NCBI GenBank assembly: GCA_903859715.1
Contig: CAIONS010000032.1
Span: forward strand, 1-44,036
Length of the DNA: 44,036 nucleotides
Source of the DNA: an uncultured Opitutia bacterium
GTDB lineage: Bacteria; Verrucomicrobiota; Verrucomicrobiia; Opitutales; Opitutaceae
Reading direction: 5' to 3'
A model generated the notes under the pieces. It did no database searches. It was not told where the DNA came from and saw only the letters and a program-made list of their open reading frames with translations. Made by a program: the position numbers and the translations under genes. This document shows, piece after piece, positions 11,491 to 34,766 of the stretch (position 1 is its first letter; each line of letters opens with the position of its first letter).

Positions 11491-12036
11491 TCAGGGTAAG
11501 TCGGAGTGCAGAATGGCAAAAAGTTTCATATCGAAGAAACGATCATCGCGCCGGTGTGATTGGCGCAGGAGACCCTCGTACTTAAGGCCGATCTTCGCAA
11601 GCACCCGTGCGGATGCTTCATTTCCGACCATGCAGGTGCCTTCAATCCGGCGCAGCTACATCGAGCCCAACGCGTGCCGCAGTACCGCGGTGGCGGCCTC
11701 GGTGGCGATTCCCTGGCCCCAGCATGAGCGAGCGAGATTAAAGGCCAGTTCGGCTTCTCCGTGGTAGGAATTGAAACTGTGCAGGAACACCGTGCCGATC
11801 ACCCGGGGATCGGATTGCCGGCGGATGGCCCAGGCGAAAAATTTCGGACCTTGGAGCCAGGCGACGAATCCACGGCTATGCTCGATCGTTTGATGGCGGG
11901 GCCAAAAGACATAACGGGTCACTTCCTCGTCCGAGCCGAAGGCAAAAATATCCTCGGCGTCGCCTGCCTGCAATGACCGCAAGGACAGGCGCGCGGTGGT
12001 CAATTCCGGCGCTGTTCCCTGGAAGTCGTCCGCCAC
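11491..12036 (-). pseudogene. GNAT acetyltransferase (RimJ/RimL-type) with in-frame amber codon
   Basis: The first 126 codons give a GNAT start with TARLSLRSLQAGDAEDIFAF, then ELAFNLARSCWGQGIATEA (acetyl-CoA binding loop). A TAG at 11656-11658 interrupts the same frame. After it the frame continues without any shift as LRRIEGTCMVGNEASARVLA and KIGLKYEGLLRQ, the usual C-terminal half, to a TGA at 11491-11493. The full length of about 181 codons is normal for the family. The gene starts with GTG 1 nt after the ilvD stop. It is either a fresh pseudogene, a sequencing error or a read-through case. Confidence 0.85.
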
Positions 12037-16143: not shown

Positions 16144-16536
16144 TCACTTCGAGGTGGCGGTCGCGGGTTTATCGGCGAACAGCACCGGGTGATCGCGATA
16201 GGCCAGGAAATAGATCGCCACGGCCCCAAGGAAGAGGAGGGCGAAAGCGAGGGCGGCATACATCAGACAGCCGCGACGGGCGGCGCTTTGCATGCTGGCG
16301 GCATCGGCCTGGTATTCGGGGAAATCCGGAAGCGGCGCGGCCGGGACGACGCGCGGGGCGACAGGAACAGCCGGCGCGACGACGGCGGGAGGAGCCACAG
16401 CGGCAGACGCAGCAGCGGGCGGAGCGGACGCCTCGGGTGCGGAAGAGCTGAGCGCGGCGATCTCCCGGTCGAACCAGGCGAGCTGCTCCTGGACGAGCGC
16501 ACGCTGCTGGCGGAGGACTTCGAGACGATCGGGCAT
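16144..16536 (-). CDS. Hypothetical single-pass membrane protein
   Basis: The 130-aa protein of no recognised family has a short helical N-terminus (LEVLRQQRALVQEQLAWF, likely coiled coil). A low-complexity Ala/Pro/Val linker spans about residues 30-75, and one transmembrane helix lies near the C-terminus (LMYAALAFALLFLGAVAIYF, about 92-111) before a short polar tail. Codon use matches the neighbours and the start ATG is clear. It lies downstream of the rpmA terminator in the same orientation, so it is probably transcribed on its own. Function unknown. Confidence 0.65.
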   Translation of the reverse strand: MPDRLEVLRQQRALVQEQLAWFDREIAALSSSAPEASAPPAAASAAVAPPAVVAPAVPVAPRVVPAAPLPDFPEYQADAASMQSAARRGCLMYAALAFALLFLGAVAIYFLAYRDHPVLFADKPATATSK

Positions 16537-16591
16537 GGGAGAAGTGGAGATCCGCCTTGGGTGCGAGGTTAACCCGGTCGAGGCTGGACAA

Positions 16592-16621
16592 ACAAAAACG
16601 CAGCCCGGTTTGGGCTGCGTT
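16592..16621 (-). terminator. Intrinsic terminator after rpmA
   Basis: On the minus strand AACGCAGCCC pairs perfectly with GGGCTGCGTT (stem positions 16621-16612 and 16606-16597) around a 5-nt loop. TTTTTGTTTG follows. It lies about 30 nt past the rpmA stop codon and ends the rplU-rpmA transcript. Confidence 0.9.
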
Positions 16622-16650
16622 TGAAAGCTAAATAAATGGCTGAGACGGGC

Positions 16651-16908
16651 TCAGGCCGTGACCGCGGCCGGGACGACGGCGACCTTGCGGTGGGCCTTGT
16701 CGTACTTGACCGTGCCGTCGGTGAGCGCGAAGAGCGTCCAATCGCGGCCGATGCCGACGTTTTTGCCGGCGTGCAGCTTGCTGCCGCGCTGCCGGACGAT
16801 GATGGTGCCAGCGAGGACGGTCTGACCGCCGAAGATTTTAACGCCGAGCCGCTGGGAGCGACTGTCGCGGCCGTTGCTGGATGTTCCCTGACCTTTCTTG
16901 TGCGCCAT
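16651..16908 (-). CDS. rpmA: 50S ribosomal protein L27
   Basis: The 85-aa ribosomal protein is located near the peptidyl-transferase centre. [16 protein letters not shown] is the conserved N-terminus without a cleavable leader peptide. [18 protein letters not shown] and [17 protein letters not shown] are diagnostic. It is preceded by TAAGGAG at about 16918-16924, where the TAA of rplU doubles as part of the ribosome-binding site 10 nt before the ATG. This is one of the few clear Shine-Dalgarno sites in the window and links translation of the two genes. Confidence 0.98.
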
Positions 16909-23651: not shown

Positions 23652-24797
23652 TCAGGCGGGGACGTTGAAATATTTCCGCTTCGCGAGGCGCCAGGCTGTC
23701 ACGAAGAAGGCGGTCAGCGGGATCGCGAGCAGCATGCCGAGCACGCCGTTGAAGGCCGTGCCCCAGAAAAAGATCGCGACGATAATGGTGATCGGGTGGA
23801 GCCCGGTGCGGTCGCCCATGATCTTCGGCGTGAGAACCCAGCCCTCGATGGCCTGCACAAAAATCTTTACGAGCAGGACCAGCCCGACCAGCCGCCAGCC
23901 GCCCTCGGGTTGGAGAAACGCGAGCGGGAGCGTGACGGCGAGTCCGACGATGGTGCCGAGGTAGGGCACGATGTTGAAGACCCCGACGATGAGGCCGATG
24001 ATCAGGCCGAACTTCAGGCCGATGAGTGTAAACCCGGCGGCCAGCAGCACGCCCATGATCAGGCCGATGAGCAGCTGGCCGCGAAAAAAGGATTCCACGA
24101 TGGCGACGAACTCCCGCAGGAGAAACACGATGTCCGCCCGGACGCCGGTGCTGAGGAAGGGCAGGTTGTGACCGATCTTCTGGATGGAGCCGCCGCGGGC
24201 CAGGAGAAAGAAAAACAGGTAGACCGGTACGATCGCCACATGCGTGCCAAAGGTGAAGAGCCCGAGAATCCCGCCGCCGGCCGCCCGCAGCGAGGGAAAG
24301 GCATGGGACAGCATGGTCTTGAGTTCATTGACCAGTCCCTCGGCAATCTCGTGCACGGTGGGGTTGACGAGCCCGCGCTGGATCAAGGCGATCCACTGCG
24401 GGTAATGTTGCTCAACATAGCCGGTGCCGTTGGCCCACAGGGACGGGGCGTAGGCGACAAAATCGAGGAGCTGGTCGATCGCCGGAGGCAGCACGACGAT
24501 CAGGGCCGACGTCGCCAGCAGCAGGAAAATGCCGTAGAGCAGCACCACGGCGGCGGGCCGGCGCAGCCGCAGGCGCTTTTCCAGGACGGTCACCACGGGC
24601 CGGAGAATCAGCGCCAGCACCCCGGCCGCGGCCAGCGGCCAGAGCACGCCCGAGAAAAAGCCCACGAGCCGGCTTAGCACGATGAACGCCAGCATGATGG
24701 CGGCGACCGCTGCGCCCACGGACAGTAGCAGCAGCGTGCCGCCGATCACCCGGCGCTGGGTAGCGGAAAAAAAGGAGGGCGCGTTTTCGTCCGACAT
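23652..24797 (-). CDS. AI-2E family transporter (PerM/YhhT-like)
   Basis: The 381-aa inner-membrane protein has about eight hydrophobic segments, including VPVYLFFFLLARGG and GVFNIVPYLGTIVGLAVTLP (a PYxG-type motif characteristic of the family). FVQAIEGWVLTPKIMGDRTG followed by LHP is another strong signature. Some members export AI-2 or act as Na/H antiporters, but most substrates are unknown. The start ATG at 24797 gives SDENAPSFF; a TTG at 24833 is in frame but has no support. It is the first gene of a four-gene minus operon ending with GT9. Confidence 0.92.
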   Translation of the reverse strand: MSDENAPSFFSATQRRVIGGTLLLLSVGAAVAAIMLAFIVLSRLVGFFSGVLWPLAAAGVLALILRPVVTVLEKRLRLRRPAAVVLLYGIFLLLATSALIVVLPPAIDQLLDFVAYAPSLWANGTGYVEQHYPQWIALIQRGLVNPTVHEIAEGLVNELKTMLSHAFPSLRAAGGGILGLFTFGTHVAIVPVYLFFFLLARGGSIQKIGHNLPFLSTGVRADIVFLLREFVAIVESFFRGQLLIGLIMGVLLAAGFTLIGLKFGLIIGLIVGVFNIVPYLGTIVGLAVTLPLAFLQPEGGWRLVGLVLLVKIFVQAIEGWVLTPKIMGDRTGLHPITIIVAIFFWGTAFNGVLGMLLAIPLTAFFVTAWRLAKRKYFNVPA

Positions 24798-24865
24798 GGA
24801 CGCGACCCTCGGGGAAAGCAGGGCCAAGGCCAAGGAAAACCCTCCGCTGAATTATCCTGATGACT

Positions 24866-24928: not shown

Positions 24929-27255
24929 TTAGACCGGTTCAATCGGGCTGATTGGATGGCGGAAGCACCAGCGGGCCATGGCCGGCAGCAGTACGATGGC
25001 TCCGAGCATGTTGACCAGAAACATGAACGTGAGCAGCAGACCCATGTCGGCTTGGAATTTCAGGTCGGAGAAAATCCACGTGCTCACACCGATGGCGAGG
25101 GTGAGCCCGGTGAAGACGATGGCGGTGCCGGTGTCCTTCAGGGCGGCGAACATTGTCGCCTCAAAATCCTGTCCGGCTTTCAGAGCGCCGTGCAGCTGCG
25201 CGAAAAGGTAGATGCCGTAGTCGACGCCGATACCGACGCCGAGGGCGACCACGGGCAGGGTGGAGGTCTTGAGGCCGATGCCGAGGACGACCATCAGGGC
25301 GTAAGCGAGCCAGCTCACGATGGCGAGCGGCACCACGATGCAGAGGGTGGCGCGCACGCTGCGAAACGTGACCAGGCAGAGTCCGATGACCGCGCCGAAC
25401 ACCCAGAGAACGATGGGAGTCTGGGCCGCCTGCACGACCTCATTGGTGGCGGCCATGACGCCGGCATTGCCGCTCGCGAGGACGAACCGGGCCTTGGGCG
25501 AAGGATGATCCGCGGCGAAGGCCTTCACGGCGTCGGTCACGGCGCGGAGTGTCCCGGCTTTGTGATCGGCGAGAAAAATGATCACGGGCATCACGCTGGC
25601 ATCGGCGTTGAGCAGACCGGTCGAAGTCTCAATGGGTGAAACGGCCTGGGCGAGCGCCTGCGGGTTGCGCGGGAGAATGCGCCACTTCAATGAGCCCTCG
25701 CTGTAGCCTGAGTTCACCAGCTTGGCCATCGAGGTCAGTGAGATCACCGACTGTACGCCGGGCACGGCACGGATGCGGCCCTCGAACTGGTCCATCAAGG
25801 TGACGACATCGTAGTCGACGCAGCCGTTGGGCACTGTCTCGACCATCACTGAAAGCATGTCGGCCCCAATGCTGAACCTGGAAGTGATCACGCGGGTATC
25901 CTGATTGTAGCGCGAACTCTGCCGCAGCTCGGGCACGCCGGCCTGGGTGTCGCCGATGCGAACCTGCTCCGCCTTCCAGTAACCCCACGCTCCGAGGGCA
26001 AACCAGATCACGATGATGACCAGGGAGGGCACAGGCTTCATCCCGCGGGCCAGACGGGCCCAGAACCGGTCCGTTCGGGCCCGGCGGGAGGCGACCCATT
26101 CGCCATAGGATGCCGGCAGGTGCAGATAGGACAGCAGGATCGGCAGGAGAAGAAAATTGGTGATCACGATCACGCTGACCCCGAGGCTGGCGATGATGGC
26201 CAGTTCCTGAATGACCGGGATCTTAATCACCAGCATCGTGAGAAAACCGACCGTGTCAGTGAGCAGCGCGACGACGCCCGGCACGATCAACTGCATGAAG
26301 GCATGCTTCGCGGCCGTCGGGCCGTCGTGGCCCTGAAATATCTCGTTGCGGAACAGGCTGATTTTCTGAACGCCGTGGCTGACGCCAATGGCGAAGACGA
26401 GGAACGGCACAAGGATGGAAAAGGGATCGATGCCGTAGCCGAGCGCGGTCAGGGCCCCGAGCTGCCAGATGACCGCGACCAGCGAGCAGACAATGGGTGA
26501 GGCGGCGAGTTTCCACCGGCCGGCATACTGCCAGACGAGCAGGGCTGTGATGAAAATGGACACGCCGAACAGGAAGAGCACGCCGCGGGCACCGTTGCTG
26601 ATGTCGCCGATGACCTTGGCGAAACCGATGATGTGGACGGAAATGGCCCCGGCACTTTCCCGCTCGACGCGCTGGCGATGGCTTCAAGTCCGTCGGCGAC
26701 GCGGAGATAATCGATCTTCCGTCCGGTGCGCGGGTCAACCTCGAGCAGCTGGGCGCTGACGATGGCGCCCGTGAAATCCGTTGCGACCAGCTGGCCGAGT
26801 TTGCCGGACTTGATGATGTTTTCGCGGACCTTGGCAAAGTGGGCGGGCGTGGCCGTGAAATCCGCCGGGATGACGTTGCCGCCTGCAAAGCCATCCTCGA
26901 CGACCTCGATGTAGCGCACATTCGGGGTGAAGAGCGACTGCACTTGGGAGCGGTCAACGGCAGGGAGGAACGTGACCTCGTCCGTGACCTTCCGGAGTTG
27001 GGCGAAAAAATCCGGTGTAAAGATATCGCCCTGCCGGGCCATCAGCGCGACAAGGACGCGATTGGCGCCGCCGAACTCGCCCTGGTATTTCACAAACGTC
27101 CGGATGTAAGGATGGCCGAGCGGCAGGGATTTGTTGAAACTCGCATCGACGTGCAGCCGCAGGGCAAACCCGCCCATGACCACGGTGAAAGCGGCAAAGA
27201 CCGCGACCAAGGGCAGGCGGAACCGGAAAATCCAAGTGGCGAATTTTTCGAGCAT
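24929..27255 (-). pseudogene. MMPL/RND-superfamily exporter, split by a one-base frameshift
   Basis: The N-terminal frame (27255 to about 26675) begins MLEKFATWIFRFRLPLVAVF, with the first transmembrane helix and a periplasmic loop up to LEAIA. Reading then jumps to another frame as QRVERESAGAISVHIIGFAK and continues to 24929. That part carries FLVFAIGVSHGVQKISLF, VVALGVGIGVDYGIYLFAQL and FMFLVNMLGAIVLLPAMARW. One base is missing near 26670-26676: the span is 2327 nt, one short of 776 codons. The intact protein would be an RND exporter of about 775 aa and about 12 helices. It is the last gene of the DUF1302-DUF1329-YCF48 cluster. It could be a pseudogene or an assembly error. Confidence 0.85.
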
Positions 27256-27261
27256 GCGCGG

Positions 27262-28212
27262 TCAGGGCTTGGGCAGGATCACCGCGCCGGCTTCGCCCAG
27301 GGTTAAGAGGGAGCCATCGGGGAGCGGAAGCAGTTCGGCTACAGCGGAGGTGAAAGCCACCGGCCACGGCGCGACTGACCGCCCTTCTTCACGGCTGACC
27401 AACCAAGACCGAGCCTGGCCGGTGAAGATCAAGGCGCCGCCCGGGGGTCGCACCGCGGTGGCGATGAGCCCGGACAGTTCGTTGGGCACGGTGATCCATG
27501 AGGCGCCGTTATCCGTGGAGCGATAGATCCGGCCGCGCAATCCATAGGCCAGCAGCGTCCGGGCATCGAGCGGAAGGATGCCGTAGAACGAGCCCTCATA
27601 GGGCGAACGGATGCGCTCCCAGCGGACGCCCTGGTCTGTTGAGCGCAGGAGGGTGCCGTGTTCGCCGGCGAGGTAGAGGGTTCCGGTTGGGCCGCGCGAG
27701 ATGCGGTTGAGGTGAAAATCGTCGTTGCTGATTTTCCCGCGGACCCAGGTCCGGCCACCATCAGCCGAGCTGACATATAAGCCGTAGGCGCCGACGGCGA
27801 TGACATGCCGCGCATCGAGCGCGATCACATCGAGGAAGGAATCCTGCAGATTTTCGCCCTGCCACTGTTTCCGCCAAATGAGACCGCCGTCGTCCGTGGC
27901 CAGAATCAGGGCGTCATGCCCGACCGCCCAGCCCTTCAGAGTGCCCGGGGCAAAGCCCACTCCGGTCAGGGTGGCGGAGGCAGACACGGTGGCGGGCAGC
28001 CAGGTTTGTCCCGAGTTGGTGGAGCGGAGAATAGTGCCGCGCTCACCGACCACGACGATTGCCGAACCGGCGAGGGCGCCGTCCAGCAACAGCATGGTGG
28101 GGGCGATCTCAGTGGCCTGGGCCGCAAGGGCACCCAGTATGGCGAGCGCGAAGGCGTGGAGGAGGGATTTGGCCAGACGCAAAGAGGCCAGTGTGCGAAT
28201 GGCGTCCCTCAA
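27262..28212 (-). CDS. YCF48/HCF136-like beta-propeller protein, exported
   Basis: The 316-aa protein has a signal peptide (MRDAIRTLASLRLAKSLLHA followed by FALAILGALAAQA). Repeated BNR-like blades follow: GTILRSTNSGQTW, GTLLRSTDQGVRWE and GRIYRSTDNGASW, each with the Ser-x-Asp/Asn-x-Gly-x-x-W pattern. This is the photosystem-II-stability-factor-like (YCF48) family, here a likely periplasmic partner or scaffold. TTG at 28212 is chosen as start because AGGAG lies 5 nt upstream and the signal peptide then begins correctly. The stop is 6 nt before the RND start. Its neighbours DUF1329, DUF1302 and RND are usual companions of this family. Confidence 0.85.
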   Translation of the reverse strand: MRDAIRTLASLRLAKSLLHAFALAILGALAAQATEIAPTMLLLDGALAGSAIVVVGERGTILRSTNSGQTWLPATVSASATLTGVGFAPGTLKGWAVGHDALILATDDGGLIWRKQWQGENLQDSFLDVIALDARHVIAVGAYGLYVSSADGGRTWVRGKISNDDFHLNRISRGPTGTLYLAGEHGTLLRSTDQGVRWERIRSPYEGSFYGILPLDARTLLAYGLRGRIYRSTDNGASWITVPNELSGLIATAVRPPGGALIFTGQARSWLVSREEGRSVAPWPVAFTSAVAELLPLPDGSLLTLGEAGAVILPKP

Positions 28213-28259
28213 AAAAGCTCCTAGTATTCGCGTCTTGGCGCCTTGGAGATTGATTCGGT

Positions 28260-28292
28260 GCCGAGGTTCAAGCCCAGCCTCGTTACCTCGGC
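28260..28292. repeat. Hairpin in the gap between the DUF1329 and YCF48-like genes
   Basis: GCCGAGG (28260-28266) and CCTCGGC (28286-28292) pair around 19 nt in the 115-nt gap (28213-28327). There is no T-tract on the minus strand, so it is more likely an mRNA-processing or stability structure than a terminator. Confidence 0.4.
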
Positions 28293-28327
28293 TGCTACTG
28301 GCCCGGCTGTTACTGTGCGGCATCTCG

Positions 28328-29674
28328 TCAGCGGATGCCATCGCGGCGCAACGAATCGGGACTGTAGTCGGCCGGGGTCCGCTTGAGGCCGAAGTCGTAC
28401 ATCTTGCCCTCGTTATCGAGCCCGATGACGAGGTACCGGCCGTTTTGCAGATCGGTATGGACCTCAAGCGTGCTCCAGAAGGTGAGCGCATCGTAGTAAT
28501 TGATGCAGTGGGCCTCGGACACACGCCAGATTTCGCCGCGGGAATCGTACTGATCGGCTGCGAGGATCTGCCAGCTGTCCTCGTCGACGTAGAAAGTACG
28601 GCGTGAGTAGAGATGCGAAGTGCCGGGCTTGAGCGTCGCATCGACGACCCAGACGCGGTGCAGTTCGTAGCGGGCGAGATCCTGGTTAATGTGCAGCGGC
28701 TTGAGGATGTCGTCATACTTCACCTTGTCGCTGTGCAGGTGGTAGGAATTGTAAGGAACGATGATCTCCTTCTTGCCGACGAGGTTCCAGTTGTAGCGGT
28801 CGGGAGCGCCATTGAACATGTCGAACTGGTCGCTGGTGCGCTGGCCGTCGGCGGCGGTGCCGGGATTGTCGTAGGCCACGTTCGGGGCGCGGGTGACACG
28901 GCGACGGCCTGGATTGTAGACCCAGGCCCGGCGCGGCTCCTTGACCTGGTCCATGGTCTCATGGGCGAGGAGAATGGTCCCGGCGAGGCGGGCCGGAGCA
29001 ACGACGGCCTGCTTGAAGTAGATCAGGATGTTGTTGAGGTCGGCCTCCGTCATGTCCTCGCGGCAGTAGTTGAAGAGAAACTCGTCCTCGAATTCGACAA
29101 GCGTATAGCTGCCGTTGCGCTGGGGCGCAGCCTGGCCGATGTGACGCGAAGCGGCAATGCCACGGTAACGCGTGAGGTGATTCCAGACGACCTCGAGCCC
29201 TCTGGCCGGAATGGGAAAGGGGATGCCGACCACGGAACCCGTAACGCCATTGCCGCCCTCCGTGAGCCGGGCCGTGGTGGCGTGCTGCTTCGTGGCGTCG
29301 TAGATCCGCTGCGGGTTGGAGGCGCTGCGGTGCGACGGGTAGACCATCAGCTTGTAGTCGGGGTAGGCCTTGAGAAGCGCGATGTGCCCGGCGGTGAGCT
29401 TATCCTGATACTGGGAGAGATTCGCAGCCGTGATGGTGTAGAGCGGCTGGTCGCCGGCGTAGGGATCAGGATGGTGATCGCCGACCTTGTAGCCGGCGGG
29501 TGGCGTGGTGATGCCGCCGTCCCAAGCGGGGATGGCGCCGTCGGCACTGCCGGCCTTCTCCGCGCCCAACGGGGTGAGGTCGGCGCCCAGGCGGGCGGCC
29601 TGGGATTCACTGATGGCGGCATGCAACCCGGCGGCCGCAAAGGTGAAGAGGGTGGAAAGAATGATTTTTTTCAT
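28328..29674 (-). CDS. DUF1329 (LolA-like fold) exported protein
   Basis: The 448-aa protein has a signal peptide (MKKIILSTLFTFAAAGLHAA) followed by ARLGADLTPLGAEKAGSADG and IPAWDGGI, the diagnostic start of DUF1329. RAWVYNPGRRRVTRAPN and SRRTFYVDEDSWQILAADQY are further family blocks. DUF1329 is grouped with LolA-like proteins, which bind lipids in a half-barrel, so a periplasmic lipid-carrier role is plausible but unproven. It starts 22 nt after the DUF1302 stop, so the two are almost certainly co-transcribed. The gene looks intact. Confidence 0.92.
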   Translation of the reverse strand: MKKIILSTLFTFAAAGLHAAISESQAARLGADLTPLGAEKAGSADGAIPAWDGGITTPPAGYKVGDHHPDPYAGDQPLYTITAANLSQYQDKLTAGHIALLKAYPDYKLMVYPSHRSASNPQRIYDATKQHATTARLTEGGNGVTGSVVGIPFPIPARGLEVVWNHLTRYRGIAASRHIGQAAPQRNGSYTLVEFEDEFLFNYCREDMTEADLNNILIYFKQAVVAPARLAGTILLAHETMDQVKEPRRAWVYNPGRRRVTRAPNVAYDNPGTAADGQRTSDQFDMFNGAPDRYNWNLVGKKEIIVPYNSYHLHSDKVKYDDILKPLHINQDLARYELHRVWVVDATLKPGTSHLYSRRTFYVDEDSWQILAADQYDSRGEIWRVSEAHCINYYDALTFWSTLEVHTDLQNGRYLVIGLDNEGKMYDFGLKRTPADYSPDSLRRDGIR

Positions 29675-29696
29675 GGCGGGGTATTTCCGATGACGG

Positions 29697-31682
29697 TTAG
29701 AAAGAGTACTTCACCGTGGTCGAGACGTAGTCGCGATCACTGAGCAGATTGTAGGCGCCGGCCCCGAAGAAATTCACGTAGCGGACCTCGAAGGACCAGG
29801 CGTTCTGGAAGGTAAACTCGGCGGCGAGGTTGATGCTCTTGCGGCCGGCGATGAAATTGCCGAGGGGCAATGGAGTGTTGCCGGTCACGTCGTGTGAAAA
29901 GGCAAGCGACGGCGAAACGTTCACACCGGCGAACACGTTGTTGTAGTCGAGCTTGGCCAGCACCTGGTAGCCCCAGGAGAAGGGGTCGGCGAAGGCGCTG
30001 GCGGGAGTCGCGGGCAAGCCGCCGAAGCCGGTGTTGGTCATCGCGGTGGCGCTGCCGCTGGTGAAGGTGCCGGAGCCGTCGTAGCGGAGCACGTTTTTGT
30101 CGGGAAGATTGGCCCAGATGCCGCCGACCTCGCCGACCAGCGTGAGTTGCTGGGAGCCGAGAATCGGGCCGAAGACCTTGGTGAACGTCGTCTGGGCCGT
30201 CACGACGCGGTGGCGGCGGTAGCCCGGGATGACCGTGTTCAGCTGGCCGTAATAATTGCCGATCTGATTGTTGGCGCCGAAGACCGGGTTGAGCGAGGAG
30301 AGCGTGGCGAACAGGAGTTCAACGTCGTCGACCTGCAGCGGCACGTTGCTCTTCAGGGACATCTCGCCCTGCCAGGTGATGCCGGACTGGCCGAGGGAGG
30401 TGTTGAAGCTCGCGCCGACCATCTAGATCGCCTCGGGGTATTCGTCGAAATACCGGCCGGCGGCCGCGGCGGTGAGCAGGCCGATTTTGCCGGCGCCGGC
30501 CGCGATGCTCTGGGCGGCGGGGTAAAACGGCTGAAGGCTCGGCGGCAACGCCGCTGCCGGCACGCCGGTGAGGGCGGCGCCAATCAGCGTGTTGAGCGCC
30601 GAGGGGATGCCGGCGGGAGGATAGCCGTTGGCGATCATCACCGGGACGAGGTTGGTGGTGGCGAGGCTGGTGGCGGTTGCGACGACGAGGGATGAATCGA
30701 TCGGAGCCGTCGGGGTGATGGCGCTGATCACCGGGGAACGGCTGTGGTACCGCGCGAAATAGAAGCCGAACTCCGTGTCGTTCAGGCCGGGCGCGAGGAC
30801 GCGGAGCGAGGCGCCGAATTGGTCGTAGTTGTTGCCGGTGTGATCGGCGGCGCGCGGAATCGCGCCGAGCGTGCCGTTGTCCGGCAGCGTGCCGAACCCG
30901 AGATAGACGTTCCGGCCGCCGGGGCTGGCAAAATCGTTGGTCGAGAAATACGTGCCGGCGGGCTCGAGTTCGTTGGGCCGGAACTCCAGCAGCCAGAAGG
31001 GCTCGAAGGTGATGTTCTTGGTCAGGCCGATGGAGACCTTGAGCATGTTGACCGGCAGGAACGCCTCCTTCAACTCGGCGCCGGGTGCGCGCAGCTTGGA
31101 GAGGTCAATGGGATTGATGACGTTGACGCCGTTCGGAATGAACGTGCTTTCGCCGAGGCTGAGCACCTGGCGGCCGAAGCGGATATCCAGCGGCAGGTCG
31201 TTGACGGCCTCGAACTTTCCGACGACGTACAGGTCGAGCAATTCCGCGCCATTCGTCACGCGTTCCTTTGCCAGACTGGAGAGTGGGGTGCGCAGGGTGT
31301 TGTCGGCTTCCAGGTCGCTGAAATAATAGCCGCGGGCGAAGAACCCGTAATCGTGGTACTTGAGCTCGAGGTCATGCGAGCCCTTGAAGAGCTCGGAGAC
31401 CCAGCCCTTGCCGTAGTTGAGGTCGCCGTCGTCGGCATTGACCGAGTTTTGCTGGCCCGCGACACCGTGAAAGGAGTTGGTCGTGCCGTAGAATTCCGGG
31501 CTGGGATTGCTCAGGCGGTACAAGCCACCGAACGAAAACGTGCTGTCGAAGCTGCCGGTGAGGTCGCCGTCGGCGAATTGGAAGGCGCGGCTGGAAGGCG
31601 CCAGCAGCAGACAGCCAAGGCCGACGGCCAAGGTGCAGCGAATCCGGCGCGATGAGACACGTGGGAACGTCATATCTTTCAT
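29697..31682 (-). pseudogene. DUF1302 outer-membrane protein with an in-frame amber codon
   Basis: A signal peptide (RCTLAVGLGCLLLAPSSRAF) is followed by FADGDLTGSFDSTFSFGGLY and RFGRQVLSLGESTFIPNGVN, typical of DUF1302 porin-like barrels. The frame runs to YFDEYPEAI, then TAG at 30423-30425. It continues directly in the same frame as MVGASFNTSLGQSGITWQGE to RDYVSTTVKYSF, a C-terminal beta-signal ending in Phe as outer-membrane barrels require. Full length would be about 661 residues, normal for the family. The residue replaced lies in the conserved YPE-I-x-x-x-G-x-SFNT block. The ATG after the TAG could restart translation, but the fragment would lack a signal peptide. Confidence 0.85.
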
Positions 31683-31718: not shown

Positions 31719-31892
31719 TCGCTGCGAGGGGGGTTGGGGTGGTTGAGGCGGAAGGCCGCCTAGGGGTTGTTTCTGCGGGCAACAAACGAAGTCGCCTGTG
31801 CCAGTTCAAGAACCAATTCGGCCAGCGGAACCCGGAATCGACGCTTATCGCTTTGACCTCGTTGAAATATGCGTAACGTGCGCGTTCGACCC

Positions 31893-34766
31893 ATGCAGGC
31901 TGCCACCCACATCCACATCAAAGGCGCGCGAGAGCACAACCTGAAGAACCTCGAGTTGCGCATCCCGCGGGGCAGGCTGGTGGTCATCACGGGCCCGAGC
32001 GGTTCGGGCAAGTCCTCGCTCGCCTTTGATACGATCTATGCCGAGGGCTACCGGAAATACATGGAGTCGCTCTCGACCCAGGCGCGGCAGGTGCTCGAAC
32101 AGCTCCGGCGTCCCGATGTGGATTTCATCCACGGACTGTCGCCGGTGCTGGCGATCGAGCAGCGCACAGGTGCGGGCGGCCCGCGCAGCACGATCGCGAC
32201 GGCGACGGAAATCGCCGACTATGCGCAGCTGCTCTGGGCCATCAGTGGCGAGCAGCGCTGTCCCAAGGATGGCGGCCGGGTCATCCAGCGTTCGCTCGAC
32301 GACAATGTGCAGCGGATCCTCACCGAGTGTGCGGGTGAACGCGTGCTGCTGCTCGCGGCGTTCATGCGGGCCAAGCCGAGCGTGCTGCGCGACGAGCTGC
32401 CCCGGTTGCGCCAGCGCGGGTTTCAGCGGGTGCGGATCGACGGGGAAATCAAGAGCCTGGACGAACCCAAGCTGATCCCGGCCGCGGCGGGCACCAAGGA
32501 AATGATCGTGGAGATCGTGGTCGACCGCCTGGTGGCGACTGCCGACCAGCGGTCGCGGCTGGCCGACTCGCTCGAGCTGGCCTTCCGGGAAGGCAAAGAC
32601 CGGGTCGTGGTGCTCGCGCAGAAAAACGCCGAGTCGCCCTGGCGGGAGCTGGCCCTGAGCCAGTCGTTGTCCTGCGAGGTGTGCGGGGATATTTTCGAAA
32701 AGCTCACGCCGCGGCATTTCTCCTTCAGCAATCGCGAGGGCGCGTGCCCGACCTGCGACGGGCTCGGGCGGAAGCTGCGGTTTGTGCCCGAGTTGATCGT
32801 GGCCGACCCGGAGAAATCCGTGCGCGAGGGCGCACTCAAGCCGTGGCGCATTGGCGGAAAAAATCTCATCATCAAGCACAACGCGCTGCTGAAGCAGCTG
32901 GCCGAGCAACTGCCGTTTGATGCAGATGTGCCGTGGAAAGAACTCCCCGAGGCGACGCGGCATACGATCCTGTATGGAGCGGGGGAGCGGCTCTTCGCGT
33001 TCAAGCTGCGGCGGATGCGCGAGGCGAAGTCCATGCCATTCGCGGGGGTCATCGCTGACCTGGAGGACAGTTTCCGGCATACGGACAGCGAGGGATTCCA
33101 GGCGCGGCTGACGACCTTCATGGTCGCGGGCGAATGCCCGGAGTGTCACGGCACGCGGCTGAATGCCCGGAGCGGCGCGGTGCTGCTCGGTGGCAAGACG
33201 TTCCCGCAGTTTATGGAGCTGGATATTGCCGAAGCCCACGCGTTCGCGCGGGAACTCGTCGCGGAGCACGCGGCCAATGAAGCGGTGCGCGATGTCGTGA
33301 CCGGAATCGACCAGCGGCTCTTTTTCCTGCTGGAGACGGGCCTGGGCTACCTGACGCTCGACCGCGATTATGCCACGCTGTCGGGCGGCGAAGCCCAGCG
33401 CGTGCGGCTGGCCACCCAGCTCGGCATGGGTCTCATGGGCGTCATCTACGTCCTCGATGAGCCGAGCATCGGCCTGCATCCGCACGACAATCAGAAACTC
33501 CTCGATACCCTCGTCGCGCTGCGGGATCGCGGCAACACCGTGCTCGTGGTCGAACACGACGAGGACACGATGCGTCTGGCTGACGAGCTGATCGAACTCG
33601 GACCCGAGGCGGGCGTGGAAGGCGGGCAGCTGCTGTTTCAGGGTACGCCGGAGCAGTGCATGCAGCTGTCGGCGAAAGTGTCGCGCACCGGACCATACCT
33701 CGCGCGCAAGCTTGGCGTCGTGAAGGACGCGACGACGAAGGCGCCCGATGGGGCGTGGCTCACGGTGCGCGAGGCGCGGGCGAACAATCTCCGGGGTATC
33801 GATGCGAAATTTCCCATCGGGCTCCTGACCTGTGTCACGGGCGTCAGCGGCTCGGGCAAGAGCACGCTGGTCAACGATGTCTTGGCCGCGGCGGCCGCGC
33901 GCAAGCTGAACGGCGCCAAGACCGTGCCCGGCAAGCACCGGCACATCGAGAACCTGGATTTCTTCGAGAAGCTCGTGCAGGTGGACCAGGAGCCCATCGG
34001 GCGCAGCCCGCGGTCGAATCCCGCCACCTACGTCGATCTGCTTACGCTCCTGCGCGACCTGTATGCCTCGGTGCCGCTGGCGAAGGTGCGCGGCTACAAG
34101 GCGAGCCGGTTCTCCTTCAATGTCCGCGGCGGACGCTGCGAACGCTGCCAGGGCGACGGTGCCATCAAGCTCGACATGCAGTTCATGGCGGATGCGTACG
34201 CGCCGTGCCCGAGCTGCGAGGGAAAACGCTACAACCGCGAGACGCTCGAGATCCTGTTTCATGGGAAGTCCATCGCGGACGTCCTCGCCATGACGGTGCG
34301 CGAGGCGATTGCGCTGTTTCGGAACCTGCCGCGGGTGATGGACAAACTCGCCACGCTCGACGCGGTCGGGCTGGGCTATCTCACGCTGGGACAGTCCGCG
34401 ACGACGCTCTCGGGGGGCGAGGCGCAGCGGCTCAAGCTCTCGCTGGAGCTGAGCAAGCGCGCGCAGGGCAGCACGCTCTACATCCTAGACGAGCCGACCA
34501 CGGGCCTGCACTGGGTGGACATCCAGAAGCTGATGGACCTGCTGTTCAAACTGCGCGACCAGGGCCACACCGTGATCGTGATCGAGCACAACCTCGACGT
34601 GATCAACATCGCGGACTGGATCATCGACCTCGGGCCGGGCGGCGGCCGGCATGGCGGGGAGCTGCTCTGCGCCGGTCCGCGCGGCACGATCGAGGCCTGC
34701 GAGCGTTCGCTGACGGGCGCGGCGCTGAAAAAGTGGGCGGAGGGCGCCAAACCATCCCGGACATGA
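31893..34766 (+). CDS. uvrA: Excinuclease ABC subunit A
   Basis: UvrA is the damage-sensing ATPase of nucleotide-excision repair. The 957-aa protein has both ABC modules. Walker A motifs are [12 protein letters not shown] (about residue 40) and [13 protein letters not shown] (about 650). Two signature motifs read LSGGEAQR. Zinc modules are CEVC...CPTC (about 265-292) and CERC...CPSC (about 750-777). The second ATG, at 31893, is preferred because homology ([17 protein letters not shown]) starts there; 31869 is an alternative. The stop codon overlaps the dinB start (ATGA), a pairing of two DNA-damage genes. No LexA-type box was seen upstream. Confidence 0.96.

Follow-up and report, generated by a model that had tools for sequence, protein, structure and literature searches.

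An interrupted AmeABCD-type gene cassette in the genome of an uncultured Opitutaceae bacterium

Results

The four genes of the cassette

We analysed a stretch of 44,036 nucleotides (nt), hereafter the window, from an uncultured Opitutia bacterium of the family Opitutaceae (GenBank contig CAIONS010000032.1); it is contig 32 of a source genome of 3.18 Mb in 71 contigs. On its minus strand lie four genes, here called A to D, which Pfam matches assign in this order to the DUF1302, DUF1329, YCF48-like and MMPL/RND families. A (29697..31682) is predicted to encode an outer-membrane barrel, B (28328..29674) a LolA-like periplasmic carrier, C (27262..28212) a beta-propeller and D (24929..27255) an inner-membrane pump. 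The intergenic gaps measure 22 nt between A and B, 115 nt between B and C and 6 nt between C and D. We concluded that the window holds a set of the AmeABCD type, in interrupted form because A contains an in-frame TAG and D a frameshift as sequenced, all four frames being intact in the congener G060. A first-pass annotation of this DNA, made by a model from the sequence alone, had described the same four families, their order on a single strand and the same three gap lengths, and these are borne out by the Pfam matches and the gene coordinates. It had also presented A and D as single genes, which did not hold, as its coordinates silently join the pieces on either side of each lesion.

DUF1302 (PF06980) was matched on both pieces of A with E-values of 2.5e-92 and 1.4e-54, covering positions 4-338 and 341-541. 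The TAG is found at 30423..30425 on the minus strand, at residue 420 of 661. The conserved frame resumes past it, and one match covers 29700-31634 with one TAG inside. In 13 aligned relatives the residue at this site was variable (K, R, S, H, D, N or G) and none had a stop. The intact A protein of a congener (L100) was modelled as a full-length barrel with a predicted local distance difference test (pLDDT) score of 88.4, and judged by this model A has an outer-membrane beta-barrel fold. The nearest structures were channels of the Occ/OprD type, with OpdK (2y2x_B) at a Z-score of 22.2 and a root-mean-square deviation (rmsd) of 3.4 over 317 residues, and AlgE (7acg) followed at a Z-score of 21.0. 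Many porins score close behind these two, and therefore the model gives no specificity. With translation ending at the TAG, the final third of the barrel in this model would be missing. When the sequence of A was compared with solved structures, the sole match (E 0.029) was an unrelated reductase, which we took as chance.

Gene B is intact and encodes 448 amino acids (aa). It matched DUF1329 (PF07044) at 1.3e-159 and LolA_like (PF17131) at 2.9e-10, above the cut-off of that family. The model of the protein reached a pLDDT of 88.6, and its residues 155-447 matched structures of the LolA superfamily. The best match was 9tp6_A (Z-score 19.9, rmsd 3.0, 237 residues), followed by the DUF1329 protein 4z48_A (Z-score 18.5, rmsd 3.5, 237 residues), while classical LolA (1ua8) gave a Z-score of 7.7. 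Going by the model, B is thus a half-barrel protein of the LolA-superfamily fold, in line with the LolA-like nature that the first-pass annotation had proposed for it. B shares this fold with the LolA and LolA3 carriers (9tp6, 4z48, 1ua8), but is about 200 residues longer, and its residues 1-154 lie outside the matched part, being barely covered by any structural match. Also the partner differs, which is an RND pump for B in this cassette and LolCDE for LolA.

Gene C is intact as well, with 316 aa counted from a TTG, a probable start that we chose by judgement from an upstream AGGAG. The product matched the PSII_BNR/YCF48 family (PF14870) at 1.4e-18. The 2327 nt of gene D are not a multiple of three, and its frame breaks off at approx. 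26677. As sequenced it would give a product of 268 aa, of which approx. 193 aa are native. In tblastn it was recovered as two pieces in different frames with the junction at 26677. MMPL (PF03176) was matched on the 550-aa C-terminal piece (24932-26581) with an E-value of 1.2e-29 and 103.8 bits against a cut-off of 20.5, and the N-terminal piece alone matched no Pfam family. The best NCBIfam match of the window fragment was TIGR00921 (HAE3) with 141.8 bits, the cut-off being 351.9. A hydropathy scan of the intact D protein of a congener revealed hydrophobic blocks at approx. residues 7-36, 222-381 and 607-765, in which single helices were not separated.

Conservation of the gene set

A search of the phylum for DUF1329 covered 288 genomes and gave 27 matches, including 9 weak partial ones. 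Full-length DUF1329 was present in 18 of the 288 genomes, 17 of them from the same family as the window and the last from a different family within its order. In all 18 loci of relatives (17 genomes, one with two copies, the window excluded) A, B, C and D followed in the same order on one strand. We also inspected 80 named loci, the best 80 of 593 relatives obtained by profile scan. Since these were chosen by similarity to B, distant arrangements are under-represented among them. The close ones belonged to Opitutaceae, Cephaloticoccus and Opitutus, and 73 of the 80 had the four genes in order. Three of the other seven lacked A and three lacked D (one of these also C). Six of the seven are incomplete because the contig ends there, and the remaining one (L145) has B alone. 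Among plasmids, one from Pseudomonas aeruginosa carried A and B without C and D, another from the same species carried all four genes, and an Azoarcus plasmid had all four together. Verrucomicrobiota, Proteobacteria, Desulfobacterota-type and other lineages thus share this gene order.

Within the family 200 genomes were counted, of which 106 had A and B together, one had B alone and none had A alone, and a strong D was detected in 103. For these counts A and B were kept at more than approx. 200 bits, which dropped 5 of 111 genomes for A and 11 of 118 for B. The recurrent co-occurrence of the four families, which the first-pass annotation had mentioned for Pseudomonas and its relatives, was accordingly found at each of these levels. 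The pairwise distances of A, B, C and D also correlated over 61 loci (Spearman 0.62-0.80), and for each of the six pairs 0 of 500 permutations reached as high a value. Such a correlation can be obtained from shared ancestry alone.

In the window the cassette is bordered by an open reading frame (ORF) on the plus strand (31869..34766), which from a reading of its sequence we take to be a putative uvrA. The gene lies divergently upstream of the cassette in 16 of the 18 loci of relatives, from which we concluded that one site is mostly kept in Opitutaceae. The two exceptions are the order-level outgroup and a second copy in the genome G010. This second A-B-C-D copy (contig C25; L040, L163 and L164) lies in a beta-oxidation island, and G010 has the usual copy at uvrA too. 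On the other side of the cassette an AI-2E family transporter gene (23652..24833, minus strand; PF01594, 8.3e-51) follows downstream, as it does in 8 of the 18 loci.

Loss of the set within the genus

Gene A was present in 9 of 12 genomes of the genus and absent from G330, G387 and G463, the last of which is 83% complete. In the sister genome G387 the sequence joins window position 27115 to 31682, so that A, B and C are deleted together with the first 46-47 codons of D. In G330 position 25939 is joined to 31836 with approx. 150 nt of other sequence in between, and a remnant of D is left. In a tree of uvrA-dinB the window grouped with G387 (support 100) and G330 grouped with G351 and G447 (support 100), both of which still have A and B. 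Because G387 and G330 are on different branches, the two losses are separate events. The set is being lost in the genus. Its loss in two congeners makes it dispensable, and it can go without harm to survival.

Origin of the interruptions in A and D

Past the stop in A the substitution ratio was 0.029 on the window branch and 0.028 on the tree, and past the frameshift in D the corresponding values were 0.013 and 0.015. Only C had a ratio above that of its tree (0.100 versus 0.047). Relaxed selection on the window branch was not found past the lesions, where the ratios are like those of the relatives, in a test that is weak because third positions are saturated. Thus the lesions are either very recent or assembly errors. 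Two other places in the window have a similar appearance. A GNAT acetyltransferase gene (11494-12036, minus strand) has an in-frame TAG inside the domain and is open in the sister G387, and at 16147-16757 (minus strand) a 199-aa frame of G387 was matched as two pieces in different frames. Both favour general decay or errors. When 34 orthologue rows across the window were compared, 6 were flagged, and three of these are lesions as sequenced, namely A, D and the GNAT gene. Two flagged rows (the IlvD region and 40472) proved to be artefacts lying before the true start, and the sixth is the putative gene at 16147-16757. The idea that lesions are confined to the cassette was dropped, since the GNAT gene elsewhere in the window is interrupted too.

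We concluded that the cassette in the window is either freshly broken or misassembled. The possibility that both interruptions arose as errors in the consensus of the metagenome assembly, with an intact cassette in the organism itself, has in our estimate a little less than an even chance. The unchanged constraint past both lesions argues for such errors, as does the third TAG in an unrelated gene on the same contig. They are opposed by the loss under way in the genus, seen as a clean deletion in G387 and another in G330, and by TAG being an ordinary stop here, ending 5 of the 34 scored genes of the window. A recoded or suppressed TAG in A was rejected on that same count and on the tRNA scan, which covered the window only and found tRNA-Lys as its sole tRNA gene.

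Stops in A were present in 3 of the 106 A-bearing genomes of the family, those being the window's own genome, G393 and G436. G393 (L055, 99% complete) has two in-frame TAGs in A, with a B that is without a stop, and G436 (69% complete) has stops in A, B and D. Further stops were seen in the uvrA matches of G433 and G283 and in C of G371.

Discussion

Known systems of the same kind

The cluster is not an unstudied one, because the arrangement has already been published together with a deletion phenotype. AmeABCD from Castellaniella defragrans 65Phen comprises a DUF1302, a DUF1329 LolA-like, a YCF48/COG4447-like and an RND protein, which are co-expressed, and its authors state that related cassettes keep composition and order (PMC6394551). 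By this description the four families and their order are those of the window. The lengths are close, with 605, 451, 316 and 787 aa in AmeABCD, compared with 661, 448 and 316 aa and approx. 775 codons in the window. The two differ in that A and D of the window are interrupted as sequenced, and in their surroundings, AmeABCD lying in a monoterpene island, a feature of that single strain, and the window cassette adjoining uvrA and the AI-2E transporter gene. The AmeABCD deletion mutant grew more poorly on apolar monoterpenes, and in de-energised cells its accumulation of Nile Red was slightly increased (PMC6394551).

In Pseudomonas putida growth on Tween 20 depends on members of these families, which are predicted to contact one another, and the fitness of mutants ties the DUF1302 and DUF1329 pair PP_0765 and PP_0766 to PP_2018 and PP_2019, a periplasmic protein and an RND-type efflux transporter (PMC10866462). 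There the genes occupy two separate loci, whereas in the window they form one cassette. The 'Nanopod' cluster of Ca. Anaerobenzenivorax ORM2a, proposed to move benzene, resembles the window in having genes for a porin-like, a DUF1329, a YCF48-related and an MMPL protein, but its DUF1329 and YCF48 genes are separated by two additional ones, and it is situated on a genomic island (PMC13101534). The same report cites a DUF1329 deletion in Delftia that impaired growth on phenanthrene. The phenotypes of the published mutants are thus ones of growth or tolerance, rather than measured transport of a native substrate. A single literature search joining Opitutaceae with these families found no paper.

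Proposed function

By analogy with these systems the cassette would be a four-part envelope system of the AmeABCD type for hydrophobic compounds, a proposal we hold tentatively, as one whose chances are nearly balanced. We infer the substrate class, the outward direction and the formation of a complex. D, powered by the proton gradient and partnered in the periplasm by C, would lift apolar or acyl molecules from the inner membrane. B as a LolA-like carrier would shield the cargo across the periplasm, and A, a wide porin-like barrel, would let it pass through the outer membrane. The role of the whole may be to limit the hydrophobic compounds dissolved in the membrane or to remove them to the outside. 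Some observations speak against this proposal. The intact D protein of a congener reached only 155.5 bits with TIGR00921, under the cut-off given above, and the efflux curves of Nile Red in real time were almost identical in the AmeABCD mutant and the wild type (PMC6394551).

Transport in the opposite direction is conceivable but in our view rather unlikely. Fatty acids or other acyl compounds would enter via A and B to the inner membrane and be trapped there by an acyl-CoA ligase, and D with C would energise the release from the carrier or recycle the carrier. The second copy in G010 points this way. Downstream of it on the same strand come genes for an AMP-binding acyl-CoA ligase, a 3HCDH/ECH protein and a thiolase, and divergently upstream lie genes for another 3HCDH/ECH protein and an acyl-CoA dehydrogenase. 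Acyl-CoA ligase or beta-oxidation genes were also detected at 3 of 4 plasmid loci and, apart from G010 as the one case among the 18 loci of relatives, at 7 of the 80 named loci, a number which is not clearly above what might be met in random 17-kb stretches. The published phenotypes, growth defects on hydrophobic substrates, would fit uptake too. Against it stands that most loci, and the window among them, are without such neighbours. RND pumps are known as exporters, and this general role is a further argument against an inward route. In the 200 family genomes a strong acyl-CoA dehydrogenase (kept at E < 1e-15, dropping 18 of 85 genomes) was found in only 47 of 107 genomes carrying the set, against 20 of 93 that lack it (Fisher p 0.0009, uncorrected for kinship). 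The enzyme is enriched among carriers, but we concluded from these counts that beta-oxidation is not required.

A wider form of the idea is that A-B-C-D serves in several Gram-negative phyla as a general conduit for acyl or apolar molecules, driven by the proton-motive force and linked to assimilation beyond solvent efflux, with the carrier and the barrel leading inward to an acyl-CoA ligase. We regard this as unlikely. If it were true, 'efflux' would describe AmeABCD at best by half, and Opitutaceae would be the natural family in which to look for it, given the family-wide copy and the additional one in a beta-oxidation island.

Another possibility, very unlikely in our judgement, is that the set delivers a lipid or pigment made by the cell itself to the outer membrane, as Lol or the flexirubin-linked LolA2/LolB2 do. 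It could draw on the modelled LolA fold of B, on LolA2/LolB2 in the flexirubin locus of Flavobacterium johnsoniae as reported in PMC11885536, on the existence of carriers without acyl-CoA dehydrogenase and on the family-wide copy, which in 16 of the 18 loci adjoins uvrA and not catabolic genes. Squalene/phytoene synthase, on the other hand, was found in 12 of 107 carriers and 6 of 93 non-carriers (p 0.32) and in 0 of 11 genomes of the genus within the 200-genome draw. Because of this rarity C30/C40 isoprenoids are unlikely as general cargo. The ligase NF006754, which we take to be OleC-like, was present in 200 of 200 genomes and is therefore non-discriminating, and among the gene clusters listed the cassette has no recurring neighbour from lipid synthesis.

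Returning to the proposed AmeABCD-type system, of a kind that is published but has been studied little, it is chiefly of interest because its gene order is fixed across phyla, because it is lost within a single genus and because one copy lies among beta-oxidation genes. Apart from the transport of lipopolysaccharide, lipoproteins and the Mla pathway, the passage of apolar compounds through the periplasm is still an open question, and the lone second copy in the beta-oxidation island of G010 offers a specific and testable hint at the cargo. The neighbours of Alteromonadales-type loci (peptidase M1, Na+/H+ antiporter and NAD-glutamate dehydrogenase) and uvrA give no such hint.

Two further observations were made in genomes of the comparison. 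Five genomes without the cassette (G328, G295, G344, G416 and G390; L156-L160) share a block situated some few kb away from a gene of the AMP-binding family that matches NF006754. It encodes a putative TetR regulator of 202 aa, an MMPL pump whose frame is broken in two in L159, a LolA_like protein that weakly matches DUF1329 and a further protein of approx. 400 aa, with Pfam applied to L156 only. In two genomes that belong to different genera (G000:C70:2757-3206 and G299:C49:2757-3206) an acyl-CoA dehydrogenase match had the same coordinates and the same frame length, and perhaps one contig was binned into both.

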